From contig MHOK01000009.1 of NCBI GenBank assembly GCA_001820055.1, forward strand, positions 1 through 44,133: DNA of 44,133 nucleotides, written 5' to 3'. The notes beneath the pieces are model-generated. The model worked only from the letters and a program-made list of their open reading frames with translations, did no database searches and had not been told where the DNA came from. The translations under genes and the position numbers were made by a program. Below, one piece after another: positions 1 to 14,881 of this stretch. Within the stretch, counting starts at the first letter, position 1. Each line of letters begins with the position of its first letter. This DNA comes from Candidatus Spechtbacteria bacterium RIFCSPLOWO2_12_FULL_38_22 (GTDB lineage Bacteria > Patescibacteriota > Minisyncoccia > Spechtbacterales > 2-12-FULL-38-22).

Positions 1-96
1 CAAAGGAGGCGGGGCGACGGACTCGCCCGCGCGGAGGAGGGGTCTGGGGAGGAATCCGCGCGGGCTTCGGCTTTCTTTTTTTAAAAAATCGGCGGC
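1..96. repeat. Left arm of a perfect 96-bp inverted repeat (GC-rich); may extend beyond the window
   Basis: Reverse complement of 1-96 is identical to 1644-1739; internal 10-bp stem GCCCGCGCGG (25-34)/CCGCGCGGGC (56-65). Confidence 0.97.
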
Positions 97-165
97 TAAA
101 AAATTAGAAAATGTCATAGTGTATTTTAGTATAACATTGTCTGTAAATATAACAAAGTGTAAAAT

Positions 166-501
166 ATGGATAATATGGCTGATAAGTTCAGATCAGATAA
201 ATACCGCAAGGCGAGAGATGGGTACTCTCGGTTTTTGAATGTTCTTTGCGAACATTGTGGCGCAAAAATCCTTGTTTATCAGAAAGACGGCCCCGGCCCT
301 CTGAAACGTCTTTACCTAGATAGGATTTTTGCGCCAGAAAATTTGGCAAATTTTCAAAAACTCTCAATAGGTAATGTGCCGAATTTAATTTGTCAAAAAT
401 GTAAATCTGTTTTGGCTATTCCATATATTTACAAAAAGGAGCAACGAAAAGCATACCGGCTTTTTGTGGGTGCAGTCACTAAAAAAATTACAAAAGTATG
501 A
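166..501 (+). CDS. Hypothetical protein with two CxxC motifs (possible zinc ribbon)
   Basis: ORF; CEHC ... CQKC motifs; overlaps next ORF by 4 nt. Confidence 0.7.
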   Translation: MDNMADKFRSDKYRKARDGYSRFLNVLCEHCGAKILVYQKDGPGPLKRLYLDRIFAPENLANFQKLSIGNVPNLICQKCKSVLAIPYIYKKEQRKAYRLFVGAVTKKITKV

Positions 502-704
502 ATCCAGCTTCCGAAAAATTAGGCCTAAACATGAAGCGCATCAGAGCCAAAAAGAAAATGTCGCAAGGTGATATTGCTCGCGCTTTAGAGGTTGATAGGG
601 GTTATATTAGTAATATTGAGAACGGCAAGAAAAATCCAACCCTTGCGACAATCCAAAAGTTGGCTGATGCGCTTGGAGTATCGGCTGATGAACTTTTGAA
701 ATAA
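498..704 (+). CDS. XRE-family helix-turn-helix transcriptional regulator
   Basis: Protein LGLNMKRIRAKKKMSQGDIARALEVDRGYISNIENGKKNPTLATIQKLADALGVSADELL is a classical HTH_3 pattern. Confidence 0.93.
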   Translation: MNPASEKLGLNMKRIRAKKKMSQGDIARALEVDRGYISNIENGKKNPTLATIQKLADALGVSADELLK

Positions 705-708
705 ATTT

Positions 709-1245
709 ATGAATATGTTATACGAACAAATTGCAAAAATCATAGAGCCCTCAATCTGCGACAGTGAAAACACTCGCATAAATTTCCTTAAGAGATTAGA
801 AGAAGGAAATTTTACTAGAGACGAAAATCCGCAAACTCACTATTGCGCCTATTTCCTTCCTTACGACCAGAAGGAGAAAAAAGTTTTTATCGTCCATCAT
901 AAAAAGTCCGATCTTTGGCTTTCTCCTGGCGGACATATTGATAAAGGCGAAGGACTTTTAGAAACTTTGAATAGAGAAATTGATGAGGAGCTTGGAGTAA
1001 AAAACTTTTTTAAAGAAGCCCAATCTCCATTTTTATTGACTATCACTCCGATTGAAAATAAGGTTCAACCTTGTAAAGTTCATTATGATATTTGGTATTT
1101 AGTTCTCACAGACGGTTCAAATTTTAATGTTGATCCGAAAGAATTTCACGAAACAAGATGGCTAACGATTGAGGAAGCAGAGAAAATCGTTACCGATGGA
1201 CCAAACAGGAAAGCATTAGAAATTGTAAAGAAAAAATATGAATAA
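709..1245 (+). CDS. NUDIX hydrolase
   Basis: Nudix box GHIDKGEGLLETLNREIDEELGV matches Gx5Ex7REx2EExGU. Confidence 0.93.
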   Translation: MNMLYEQIAKIIEPSICDSENTRINFLKRLEEGNFTRDENPQTHYCAYFLPYDQKEKKVFIVHHKKSDLWLSPGGHIDKGEGLLETLNREIDEELGVKNFFKEAQSPFLLTITPIENKVQPCKVHYDIWYLVLTDGSNFNVDPKEFHETRWLTIEEAEKIVTDGPNRKALEIVKKKYE

Positions 1246-1639
1246 AAAATCACTAGACCCAGCTGGACATTTAACGCTCGCCGTTAGTAATCTTGAAAAA
1301 AGCAAAAAATTTTATAAATCCTTGTTTGGAAAACTGAAATTCAAACAGATTCGAGACGGCGAGCGTAGCGTGGCTTGGGCTACGCGAGAAGGTTTTGGTA
1401 TTTGGATTAGGCAAGCAAAACATGCCAAGCCGCGCTATAAGTATTTTGCGCCTAGCCTTCAACACTTATGCGTAAAAGCAAAAACGAGGAAAACAGTTGA
1501 TGAAATCTACAAGCTTATGTCGGCAAAGAAAATTTTCGTCTTTGACGAACCAAAAGCTTATCCTGAATATACGCCGAAATATTATGCCGTTTTCTTTGCC
1601 GACCCAGATGGAATAAAAATTGAGATTGCCTATTATTAA
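1238..1639 (+). CDS. VOC / glyoxalase-like family protein
   Basis: HLTLAVSNLEKSKKFYKSLFGKL ... FFADPDGIKIEI typical of VOC domains. Confidence 0.88.
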   Translation: MNKKSLDPAGHLTLAVSNLEKSKKFYKSLFGKLKFKQIRDGERSVAWATREGFGIWIRQAKHAKPRYKYFAPSLQHLCVKAKTRKTVDEIYKLMSAKKIFVFDEPKAYPEYTPKYYAVFFADPDGIKIEIAYY

Positions 1640-1643
1640 TGTT

Positions 1644-1739
1644 GCCGCCGATTTTTTAAAAAAAGAAAGCCGAAGCCCGCGCGGATTCCTCCCCAGACCC
1701 CTCCTCCGCGCGGGCGAGTCCGTCGCCCCGCCTCCTTTG
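1644..1739. repeat. Right arm of the perfect 96-bp inverted repeat
   Basis: Exact reverse complement of 1-96. Confidence 0.97.
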
Positions 1740-1945
1740 CCCCAGAAAAATAGTGGCGGGGCGCATCATTTCAGATTTCGCTCTGCGCCCGTCCATAGCT
1801 TTACGCGAAGGAGGGTTTTGGATTTGTGTATCAAATTTGGTAAAATAATTTCAAAAGTTTGTGAAGGTTTTAATTCGGGAGCCAATTTTTGAATCATATT
1901 TTGTAATAGTTGTTTTTAATACCCCCCCCGCAGGGTTTATATATT

Positions 1946-1954
1946 TGATATACT
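1946..1954 (+). promoter_or_regulatory. Extended -10 box TGATATACT, 6 nt before ATG at 1961
   Basis: TGATATACT-TAGAAT-ATG read directly. Confidence 0.6.
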
Positions 1955-1960
1955 TAGAAT

Positions 1961-2428
1961 ATGAAAAAAATAGTGTTGCTAGGTCGTGGTGGGGCAGGTA
2001 AATCAACCACAGCTAGAAAGATCGGTGAGATAGCAAGCTTACCCGTTATTGAATTAGATAAATATTTTTGGCAACCAGGCCTAATACCATTAAGCAAAGA
2101 GAGGTGGATATTAAAACAAAGAGAACTTGCTATTAATGATAGGTGGATTATGGACGGTGACTTGGGCAAATACGATGTTTTAAATGAAAGATTAAAACTA
2201 GCTGATACAATAATAATTTTAAACTTTCCTTTTTGGACCTGTTTTCTTCGTGCATCAAAACGCTCAAAAGAAAGAATGGATTTTTGGTGGTGGCTATTCA
2301 CTTGGCGCTTTTTAGAACTACCTAAAATTATGAAAATGATTAAAGATTATTCGCCGACATCTGCAGTTATAATAATAAAAAGTCAGAAAGAATTAGACAA
2401 TTTTTTAATGAAAATTAAAAACAACTAA
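1961..2428 (+). CDS. P-loop kinase (adenylate kinase / FlaR-like topology modulation family)
   Basis: Walker A GRGGAGKSTTARK; DKYFW and WIMDGDLGKYD patterns of this small-kinase family. Confidence 0.75.
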   Translation: MKKIVLLGRGGAGKSTTARKIGEIASLPVIELDKYFWQPGLIPLSKERWILKQRELAINDRWIMDGDLGKYDVLNERLKLADTIIILNFPFWTCFLRASKRSKERMDFWWWLFTWRFLELPKIMKMIKDYSPTSAVIIIKSQKELDNFLMKIKNN

Positions 2429-2497
2429 ATCATTTTTTATTTTTATCCAATCCAAAGTTCTAAATCTGTCTAACAATGCGAGCCAAGAAACTAGATA

Positions 2498-2506
2498 TGT
2501 TAAAAT
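2498..2506 (+). promoter_or_regulatory. Extended -10 box TGTTAAAAT, 6 nt before ATG at 2513
   Basis: TGTTAAAAT-GAAAAC-ATG. Confidence 0.6.
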
Positions 2507-2512
2507 GAAAAC

Positions 2513-3967
2513 ATGAATAAAGTTTTTAACACAAGATATTTAGTACATTTGGTATTGGCTGGTTTGTTTAGTTTTTTAGTTTTTAACTTGACTTATGCTG
2601 TTAGGCCAAGCGACTATGATCTAAAAGAAGGTGACACTACTAGCGCATCCGGATCTGATGACCCAGACGTTTATATAATTAACGAACATGGATATAAAAG
2701 GTTATTTTTGAATCCAGTCATTTTTAATTTTTATGGACATTTAGGGGGCTTTGCAAAAGTAAAAGCAATTTCTCCAAGTACTCGAGATGCATTTATAACT
2801 TCAGGGCTGTTTCGCAATTGTGAAGCAAACGACGAGAAAGTATACGGGTTAGAATCAACTGGCGAAGATACTTCAATACTTCACTGGATTAACACCACCG
2901 GCGCTCAAGCGGTAATTGACGACCCTAATTTTTTCAAAAAGGTATTTTGTATTAATAATAATGAGTTTAATTGGTATTTAAAAGGCTCAGATTACAACTC
3001 TGTAAACCAAATACCCGTTTACTCTCGAGATACTACATCAACGTCTACTGTAAGAGTGGGAATTATAGAATTTGTGCCACAAAATGTTGTTTATGGTGAT
3101 GTGCACTATGCTTATTTGAAAAAAACATCTGGGTGTTGGCTTAGCTCCGGTGGAGAAATTGGAAACTATTATTGGGTGTCCGGCTCAAATCAATCCATTC
3201 ACTCAAGTGATTGTTACGACATACTAGAAACGTATTCTTTCCTTGATATTTTTAATAACCTCAGTAAGGGCATATCCAAAAATGTTCAGAGGACAATATA
3301 CGGGGAGGAGGATACTATGGAAACACTACATTCTGTTTATTACATTAAAGATTTCTATGAAAAGGAAGCATTAAAATACGGCGTTTCCGACCTAGCAATT
3401 GATATTGATGTAAAGGGTCCTTATATGCTTGCAAGCGATCCACCGTTAGGTGGCCGGTGGGGTGTGGGGGAGGGGGTATGTAACGCCAGTCTAACGGAGT
3501 TTTTTGTCAACGAGGCGATAAGTAGAGGGGTTGATGAAAGCCAATATGATGTAATCGCATACGTATATTTGGGCGATTGGCAACTGTCTGGTAGATCGTA
3601 TGAAGGATTTACGAGTTGCGCAACTGGTTCAAAAAGTTTTATGACAGTTACTACGTGGCGACTTCCACAAGAGGATGAGGGCGTAGTGACACTCGCTCAT
3701 GAATTAGGTCATAGTTTTGGAGCGAGCGATTATTACACATCGCCTTGCCCTCAAAATCCTACATTGTGGTCTTGCGTGAAGGACCCGGAAGGCATACCGG
3801 AGCCAAATAAAATACCTAAGTATCCACAAACAAAGGGCTGCTTGATGGCTCAGATTATAGCATACAATAAACCAGGGTCAGATGAAGCAGGCGACGCAAC
3901 TAGTATTTCCAATCTTAATCAGGCTGTAATATGTGACGCCACAGCCAGAGAGTTTGGCTGGAGATGA
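2513..3967 (+). CDS. Secreted zinc metalloprotease (metzincin-like)
   Basis: N-terminal signal/TM; HELGHSFGASD (HExxHxxGxxD) followed by a Met-turn-like GCLMA. Confidence 0.75.
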   Translation: MNKVFNTRYLVHLVLAGLFSFLVFNLTYAVRPSDYDLKEGDTTSASGSDDPDVYIINEHGYKRLFLNPVIFNFYGHLGGFAKVKAISPSTRDAFITSGLFRNCEANDEKVYGLESTGEDTSILHWINTTGAQAVIDDPNFFKKVFCINNNEFNWYLKGSDYNSVNQIPVYSRDTTSTSTVRVGIIEFVPQNVVYGDVHYAYLKKTSGCWLSSGGEIGNYYWVSGSNQSIHSSDCYDILETYSFLDIFNNLSKGISKNVQRTIYGEEDTMETLHSVYYIKDFYEKEALKYGVSDLAIDIDVKGPYMLASDPPLGGRWGVGEGVCNASLTEFFVNEAISRGVDESQYDVIAYVYLGDWQLSGRSYEGFTSCATGSKSFMTVTTWRLPQEDEGVVTLAHELGHSFGASDYYTSPCPQNPTLWSCVKDPEGIPEPNKIPKYPQTKGCLMAQIIAYNKPGSDEAGDATSISNLNQAVICDATAREFGWR

Positions 3968-4049
3968 TACTAAACTGTTTGCTCTCCGGACTGGAATTTT
4001 ACATAAACACATATTTGTGCGGGGTAGTTAAAAATAACCCAATAAGTTG

Positions 4050-4058
4050 TGTTACAAT
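4050..4058 (+). promoter_or_regulatory. Extended -10 box TGTTACAAT, 6 nt before ATG at 4065
   Basis: TGTTACAAT-TAGGTT-ATG. Confidence 0.6.
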
Positions 4059-4064
4059 TAGGTT

Positions 4065-4523
4065 ATGAAAAGCAATTTTATTTCAGCAGTTGTTAATATC
4101 ACCATTCTTTCTGTTACTATTTTTGCTGTCAGTATTTATTTTATTTCTAACAATGAACTGATTGGCGTAATAATTTTTGGATTAGGTATTCTTTGTCTTA
4201 TTTCTTTAATTCCCTTTAAAATATCCATAAGTAAGATTTGGCCAGATATCATTTTTGGGTTAATTGATGACGGAATTTTAGCAATATTAGCTATTTTTGG
4301 AGGAAAGATAGCCGGAGTTGCCGGCGCGGTTATCGGCGGTGTTGTTGGCAACGCAATAACAGACGGTATCGCCGGAGTATTCGAGGGATATGCGGCGGAA
4401 AAAATGAGAGCAAAGAACATTTCTGACCAACGGACAATGTTAGGTTCGGCCGTAGGGAAAATGGCAGGATGTCTATTGGGTGCAGGAGCGGTTTTAATCG
4501 TAGCGAACCTGTTTAATATTTAA
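4065..4523 (+). CDS. Hypothetical membrane protein with glycine-rich TM region
   Basis: ORF; hydrophobic segments, GGKIAGVAGAVIGGVVGNAITDGIAG. Confidence 0.7.
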   Translation: MKSNFISAVVNITILSVTIFAVSIYFISNNELIGVIIFGLGILCLISLIPFKISISKIWPDIIFGLIDDGILAILAIFGGKIAGVAGAVIGGVVGNAITDGIAGVFEGYAAEKMRAKNISDQRTMLGSAVGKMAGCLLGAGAVLIVANLFNI

Positions 4524-4561
4524 GTCTGGTATATAAATATAATTATTTTGCCATTTAAAAT

Positions 4562-5023
4562 ATGAATCTCACAAACTTTTTTCAAAAAAATACTGTTTGG
4601 AAGAAACTTTTTTTCGTATCGTTCTTCCTTTTTCTATATTGGCCCCTAACTAATATACTAGAGGGAGATTACATATCAGCTTTGTGGACTTTTGGAGTCG
4701 GCACGATGCTTTATGCAGGTTCGTATAGTTTACTTAGGTTAGATGGAAAGATACAAATGTTTTGTGGAGTGGCAATTGTTAGCGCAACAGTTTTAACAAT
4801 GTTTATGCTTTTTAGTTTAGGATTAGGTACAGCGACTGAGATTAATTACATAGAATTGGCACCATATATTTTTTCGTCGATTTTTATGTTCATAGCTAGC
4901 TCTCTTAGATTTATTCAAAAATGGGGCTTGAAAACCTTACTTTTGATTTTGTTGATTGCCTGGTTTTCAATAAGGGTACTTAGCTACGTAAAGAGTAAGA
5001 GTATGTTTTATTTGGGATTATAA
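4562..5023 (+). CDS. Hypothetical polytopic membrane protein
   Basis: ORF with several hydrophobic segments. Confidence 0.7.
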   Translation: MNLTNFFQKNTVWKKLFFVSFFLFLYWPLTNILEGDYISALWTFGVGTMLYAGSYSLLRLDGKIQMFCGVAIVSATVLTMFMLFSLGLGTATEINYIELAPYIFSSIFMFIASSLRFIQKWGLKTLLLILLIAWFSIRVLSYVKSKSMFYLGL

Positions 5024-5075
5024 AGATAAACTGTTTTGCAACGCTCATAATTCGGAGATATAATAAATTTTTGTT

Positions 5076-5102
5076 ACTGAACCCGAGGTTAGTAGGTTCA
5101 GT
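5076..5102 (+). terminator. Hairpin ACTGAACC/GGTTCAGT downstream of 4562-5023
   Basis: 8-bp stem, 11-nt loop, weak T tract. Confidence 0.45.
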
Positions 5103-5113
5103 TTAAAATATAA

Positions 5114-5141
5114 AAAAACCACCTTTCACTTGGTGGTTTTT
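5114..5141. terminator. Bidirectional intrinsic terminator between convergent genes
   Basis: AAAAACCACC ... GGTGGTTTTT. Confidence 0.85.
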
Positions 5142-14770: not shown

Positions 14771-14881
14771 TCAATTTTATAAAAAATAGTACAATTTATT
14801 CCACGCTGCCACTTCGTTCCCGCCTGCCTACGGTAGGCAGGCTTACGACGGAATAAATTGTACTATTTTTTATAAAATTGA
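14771..14881. repeat. 32-bp perfect inverted repeat around a GC-rich palindrome
   Basis: Arms 14771-14802 and 14850-14881; central near-palindrome GCCTGCCTACGGTAGGCAGGC 14822-14842. Confidence 0.95.

Follow-up and report, generated by a model that had tools for sequence, protein, structure and literature searches.

The left end of contig MHOK01000009.1 from Candidatus Spechtbacteria bacterium RIFCSPLOWO2_12_FULL_38_22 carries four genes between two GC-rich inverted arms. The whole contig of 44,133 nt (G000:C9:1-44133) was analysed and is referred to here as the window. Probably, it contains one half, that with the cargo, of an element that integrates site-specifically in Patescibacteria (the candidate phyla radiation, CPR), employs a large serine recombinase (LSR), targets the 3′ ends of tRNA genes and carries a second, inverted attP site. 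Serine-recombinase integrative elements at tRNA 3′ ends are an already known kind; no description of a mirrored second attachment site together with a covarying hairpin was found in the literature searched, with subscription papers and preprints outside its coverage.

Nucleotides 1-96 of the window are the exact reverse complement of 1644-1739 (100% over 96 nt), and the GC content is 0.65 in the arm versus 0.36 in the window. The longest exact inverted repeat obtained after Markov shuffling of the window measured only 15-18 nt, and chance is thus ruled out for the 96-nt repeat. An earlier note, made from the sequence alone, had described this repeat in an AT-rich window, the short distance between the VOC stop codon (ending at 1639) and the right arm (beginning at 1644), and a CxxC/XRE/NUDIX/VOC cassette without a transposase; the open reading frames are as it claimed, and no transposase lies between the arms. 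Its supposition that the arm exceeds 96 nt is borne out by homology with 15 other loci, according to which the right arm extends to 1884 and the 96-nt repeat is the inner part of an arm at 1644-1884. Beyond 1739, this arm is about 82-84% identical to those of loci L049, L077, L051 and L074. The first base of the window falls within the left arm, in keeping with the assembly break at a repeat that the note had envisaged; a complete left arm (P arm) would be expected to measure about 241 nt and to read outward to the left. A search of the source assembly (24 contigs, 623 kb, 94% complete) returned the two window copies only, with no third arm and no copy of the outer arm.

Placed at the very start of a contig, and perfectly identical to its counterpart, the left arm could in principle be an assembly artefact, either a fold-back, as the note had considered, or a chimera. 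This is extremely improbable, because inverted pairs of the same kind recur across many independent assemblies, in L229 and L118 within contigs of 320 kb and 57 kb, respectively, because the inner boundary TAGCCGCC is the family-wide one, identical across the loci that share the window's arm end (type A, defined below), and because matching empty sites are present in relatives.

The same arms around different cargo, which the note had proposed to look for, were found in dozens of CPR genomes. In the GTDB set, 83 stretches contain an exact match to a 28-nt core of the arm, almost all of them from Patescibacteria of many named lineages, and a profile of the arm recovered paired arms in 22 loci, with seven further pairs split across adjacent stretches. 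Pairs on the same contig all have the left arm on the minus and the right arm on the plus strand, and the insert is mostly 1.4-4.9 kb long. Within one element the two arms are near-identical, whereas between elements they diverge. The distribution is patchy: out of 380 sampled Patescibacteria genomes, 5 contain a 27-nt core and 22 (about 6%) the 19-nt loop of the hairpin discussed below, each with at most one mismatch. A search against Rfam placed no family on the arms. A temperate phage or plasmid was considered and rejected; IMG/VR and the phage and plasmid collections yielded no match, and no capsid or Rep genes were noticed among the cargo of the element loci. Some arms (L012, L060/L079, L067 and L076) come from contigs that were assigned in binning to Gammaproteobacteria, Polynucleobacter and Bacteroidetes, representing either mis-binned CPR contigs or transfer to hosts.

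The nature of the arms emerges from more complete relatives. An LSR gene adjoins an arm in about 14 loci, usually immediately outside it, and the proteins of L118, L225 and L227 combine Resolvase, Recombinase and zinc-ribbon domains. This first estimate of association counts raw adjacency; stronger evidence comes from the anatomy of inverted repeats and cores. Further LSR loci were fetched from the same genomes as the arm-adjacent LSRs. Most loci of the FLYARKS clade have their LSR gene set between the two copies of a separate inverted repeat (93-153 bp). One copy starts where a tRNA gene has its 3′ end and overlaps the 3′ end of the LSR gene; the other abuts the outer end of the cargo arm and shares 2-6 nt with it. 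No such inverted repeats flank the LSR genes belonging to other clades in this set. Loci of five further genomes, picked by the hairpin loop alone, display the same LSR and arm anatomy.

Nine loci of type B, the relatives that have an LSR gene just beyond one arm and a tRNA 3′ end on the other side of that gene, are located at tRNA-Gly, tRNA-Leu (two), tRNA-Ser (three), tRNA-Glu and tRNA-Ala (two), and possess attL as well as an inverted internal attP with a matching core. Their order is tRNA, core, LSR half, LSR gene, LSR half, inverted core, arm, cargo, arm, core and host DNA. The 3′ terminus of the target tRNA itself serves as the core (CGCACCA, CACCA, CCGCCA, GCACCA, TCAC, CCGC or CCACCA); the far copy of the core, attR, could be delimited in seven of the nine loci and is sometimes shortened, for example to CGCAC in L115. 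The internal junction constitutes a full arm-core-LSR-half site in reverse orientation, and joining the outer ends would yield a second, matching site of this kind. In L118 and L225, arm, core and LSR half merge into one perfect inverted repeat, 522 and 492 bp long, respectively. The L118 element measures 4,831 bp and is inserted exactly at a tRNA 3′ end; in two congeners of its carrier (L177 and L178) tRNA-Ser(CGA) stands directly beside the downstream gene, which provides, for a relative of the window element, the empty site that the note had suggested seeking. At L227:6988-8084, a second inverted repeat touches the far arm and resembles an adjacent insertion of another element.

Inverted arms, variable cargo and the absence of an internal transposase are also what a non-autonomous DDE-type transposon (mobile insertion cassette) would present, with passenger genes between terminal inverted repeats and the transposase supplied in trans. 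This explanation is very unlikely, since the ends coincide with tRNA 3′ termini, the target-derived cores differ in sequence with one of them inverted inside the element, LSRs are located at the arms, and the paired arms show no target-site duplication of the DDE type. Mobility, as put forward in the earlier note, is supported by the recurrence of the arms and by a relative's empty site. The arms are, however, not the ends of a transposase-type transposon: in complete relatives, each forms the element-side half of an LSR attachment site at a tRNA 3′ end, with the enzyme gene outside.

As an LSR element, it would move by recombination between its attP and a tRNA 3′ end serving as attB, an event that would leave the tRNA intact. 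The excised circle would have two segments, one with the LSR and one with the cargo, parted by two inverted repeats of about 500 bp with a full attP in each; a circle of this type, similar to the yeast 2-micron plasmid, is what the integrated perfect repeats of L118 and L225 would be expected to give. Either attP might be used, and the cargo could invert. A switch in which the LSR flips the cargo via the inverted attP sites and thereby alters expression nevertheless seems unlikely. Two complete attP-like sites in inverted orientation fit such a device, and cargo orientation varies, with genes reading toward the LSR in two loci (L116 and L072) and in the opposite direction in others, among them L115, L118, L225 and L228; this variation was, however, seen between loci of different cargo and not within one population, and serine integrases normally recombine only attP with attB when no directionality factor is present (PMC3783163).

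Support for the assignment of attP and attB comes from a shared motif. In the arms, GTTCG or a close variant is found at a distance of 27-30 nt from the end of the core, compared with 22-24 nt for the GTTCG/A of the tRNA T-loop, so that the offset is 4, 5 or 6 in 12 comparisons, with a mode of 5. For serine integrases, the motif bound by the zinc ribbon (ZD) is known to be displaced outward by 5 bp in attP relative to attB (PMC3783163); the offset of 4-6 bp matches this shift and argues that the arm is an attP half and the tRNA an attB half. The motif common to tRNAs suggests an explanation for the use of several tRNA isotypes by one LSR clade. Outward promoters at the arm ends were also considered and rejected, in that TATAAT-like boxes recur but vary, whereas the GTTCG motif and the core are constant. 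The arm ends are accordingly best described as putative recombinase half-sites, which might have promoter activity as well.

How does the window fit into this scheme? The arm end GTTTGCGAAGGTTTTAATTCGGGAGCCA or a near variant of it, with the core GGGAGCCA, defines the type-A arms of 16 loci including the window, most of which diverge just beyond it. What follows is a second half-site (ATACGARTTC) in some loci and unrelated host DNA in others, the window continuing as host DNA from 1885. By homology, 1877-1884 would thus represent attR and 1644-1884 the P arm. In L077 and L013, the type-A half-site is continued by an LSR gene, and in L056 a tRNA-Asn with the 3′ end GGGGAGCCA is followed by the half-site and then by a type-A arm. 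Probably, then, the window displays the cargo half only, and its left arm would lead off the contig toward the missing LSR and the target, most likely tRNA-Asn, in the predicted leftward order arm, TGGCTCCC, P′, LSR and tRNA-Asn (3′ end GGGAGCCA or GGGGAGCCA). Neither tRNA-Asn nor tRNA-Phe was found among the tRNAs read from this genome; the missing tRNA-Asn is consistent with a target off the contig, although it is no proof.

Several observations weigh against assigning the window to this element type. Its LSR, left flank and tRNA are absent from the assembly, and membership rests on arm homology. No type-A locus is complete from tRNA-Asn through the LSR to both arms, and in one genome (G383:C37) tRNA-Asn is accompanied by an LSR of another subfamily with no arm alongside. 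An LSR is present in 11 of the 64 loci with more than 1.5 kb of outward flank, most type-A loci have none in the flank, and many of them may be non-autonomous. Relatives are too divergent for an empty-site comparison at the window, and the excised circle and any inversion are inferred. In the search for the missing left half of the element, the sole resolvase-family gene of the source genome (G000:C21, L172:7436-9136) proved to belong to another group and to have no arms; it possesses a tRNA-antisense-like tail, MAGIEPACRRGKNS, and no tRNA or long inverted repeat was found alongside it.

The second hallmark of the arms is hairpin H. Its loop, TTCCTCCCCAGACCCCTCC, is invariant apart from the G, which can be replaced by A or C, and contains a C/T run that forms a mirror repeat. 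The stem sequences are unrelated between elements but complementary within each; across six representative stems, 97% of cells pair, a value that no slide approaches, and each of the 12 pairs shows changes on both sides. Covarying stems around an invariant loop point to a hairpin whose loop is recognised and under selection, and hairpin H is, to judge from these comparisons, under strong structural selection. A role as single-stranded DNA in replication or transfer is a guess. In L242 (identical to L038), two back-to-back cassettes at 411-5126 have one hairpin H in common, and on either side of it the inner 42-nt ends are inverted, an arrangement suggestive of cassettes having been stacked at the hairpin there. 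An integron cassette array was rejected, as the adjacent recombinases are serine-type and the repeats inverted, with no tyrosine integrase and no direct attC sites.

On comparative evidence, the window cassette is a mosaic whose parts have moved between distant hosts. XRE-type proteins are present in 23 loci, and that of the window is 96% identical to its L077 counterpart; the CxxC protein has counterparts of 83-87% identity in L077 (83%) and L038. The close NUDIX and VOC relatives are found in L044, where the neighbouring genes differ from those of the window. Ribosomal protein L20 of the L044 and L077 hosts is only 51-52% identical to that of the window genome, against 92-96% amino-acid identity for the NUDIX, VOC and XRE proteins, a discrepancy that indicates horizontal transfer. 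Cargo at other loci includes methyltransferases, HNH nucleases, PEP synthase-like and HIT proteins, a copper ATPase and DNA cytosine methylases, as well as further NUDIX and VOC proteins. In L087 and L237, the cargo of the element comprises a C5 cytosine methylase and a small regulator of the HTH type and is thus restriction-modification-like.

It is conceivable, if less probable, that cargo is swapped mainly by homologous recombination after DNA uptake, between arms that form a fixed platform placed by the recombinase. The occurrence of the same or similar genes in varied sets (NUDIX and VOC in the window and L044; CxxC and XRE in the window, L077 and L038), the stacked cassettes of L038/L242 and the greater similarity of arms inside than between elements all agree with such exchange, which leaves the insertion at tRNA ends, the core copies and the 4.8-kb empty site unexplained. 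Homologous exchange may well operate on top of LSR integration. A bolder and tentative proposal is that of lineage-wide gene-capture elements, in which features shared by tRNAs, namely the 3′ end and the T-loop GTTCGA, would give one LSR clade a near-universal attachment site, a 2-micron-like circle would bear two inverted attP sites, and cassettes would be exchanged at the hairpin with the invariant mirror-repeat loop, an integron parallel assembled from other parts.

Features of the left end of the window, with putative functions assigned by comparison with related loci
Feature	Position	Strand	Remarks
Left arm	1-96	-	Clipped by contig start; exact reverse complement of 1644-1739
Hairpin H, left arm	25-65	-	11-bp stem, 19-nt loop at 36-54
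Leader/promoter-like segment of cargo operon	97-166	+	83-92% identical pieces in eight other loci
Cargo gene 1, 111-aa CxxC protein	166-501	+	Zinc-ribbon matches sub-threshold only
Cargo gene 2, XRE/HTH_3 regulator	498-704	+	Commonest cargo gene of the element family
Cargo gene 3, NUDIX hydrolase	709-1245	+	92% amino-acid identity to L044
Cargo gene 4, VOC/glyoxalase-fold protein	1238-1639	+	93% amino-acid identity to L044
Right arm (P arm), complete	1644-1884	+	Left-arm identity to 1739, remainder by homology and type-A end motif
Right-arm order	1644-1884	+	Inner end, hairpin H, hairpin 2, LSR half-site, core
Hairpin H, right arm	1675-1715	+	GCCCGCGCGGA-(TTCCTCCCCAGACCCCTCC)-TCCGCGCGGGC; loop 1686-1704
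Hairpin 2	1725-1763	+	CGCCCCGCC-loop containing CCCCAGA-GGCGGGGCG; sequence reading and arm comparison
Putative recombinase half-site	1857-1876	+	GTTTG motif, 28 nt from core end
Core GGGAGCCA, read as attR	1877-1884	+	Type-A loci diverge directly after core
Right host flank	1885-1960	no strand	Unrelated to other loci
Next gene, P-loop kinase-like	1961-2428		Right of host flank

Elsewhere in the window, an exact 32-nt inverted repeat with a short spacer (14771-14881) exceeds the chance length and is probably a local hairpin. Among the other loci, an IS110-like element appears to interrupt the left arm of L018 (36-1596), and an IS630-like transposase reading frame lies within the cassette of L030 (1916-2941), both identified by reading the sequence; a LOOT RNA (RF03000) at L064:4306-4431 is located about 1.3 kb beyond an element.

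For the question of how CPR bacteria acquire genes, given their tiny genomes and the few plasmids or phages known from them, the element offers a concrete vehicle with defined ends, enzyme and target. It moves genes whose proteins are 80-96% identical between hosts whose L20 proteins are only 42-52% identical. Architecturally, the mirrored attachment site stands out as unusual, and purified recombinase would allow a direct test of it; an LSR clade accepting many tRNA 3′ ends could serve as a genetic tool for CPR bacteria, which are hard to manipulate.

Individual traits of the element have parallels in several known systems. The yeast 2-micron plasmid, with two unique segments between inverted repeats and a recombinase site in each, resembles the inferred circle; the plasmid differs in relying on a tyrosine recombinase (Flp) and in not integrating at tRNAs. 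No replication genes were seen in the present elements, and the analogy is one of layout only. Staphylococcal cassette chromosome (SCC) elements target the 3′ end of rlmH, unlike the many tRNAs of the present family, and are not known to have a duplicated inverted attP region. The likeness of SCC elements (SCCmec, with CcrAB/CcrC) lies in LSR-borne cassettes, swappable cargo and one conserved site. Their CcrB has a relative in DsiB, the CcrB-like serine recombinase of the Dehalococcoides ssrA islands (PMC3146451). These islands likewise sit at the 3′ part of an RNA gene, with direct repeats of the target at their boundaries and variable cargo; they differ in having a single target (tmRNA), direct repeats only and a six-gene integration module, and neither an inverted second attP nor hairpin arms are described for them, the term 'inverted repeat' being absent from the paper (PMC3146451). 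Mobile insertion cassettes (such as MIC231) and TIMEs also place passenger genes in terminal inverted repeats with no transposase inside, but need an IS or Tn3 transposase and have neither a tRNA site nor LSR half-sites. Integrons, finally, have a row of direct attC sites, whereas the present elements have inverted site pairs and no tyrosine integrase was seen; integron gene cassettes resemble them in that small gene units flanked by structured hairpin sites are exchanged, as in the stacking at L038/L242.
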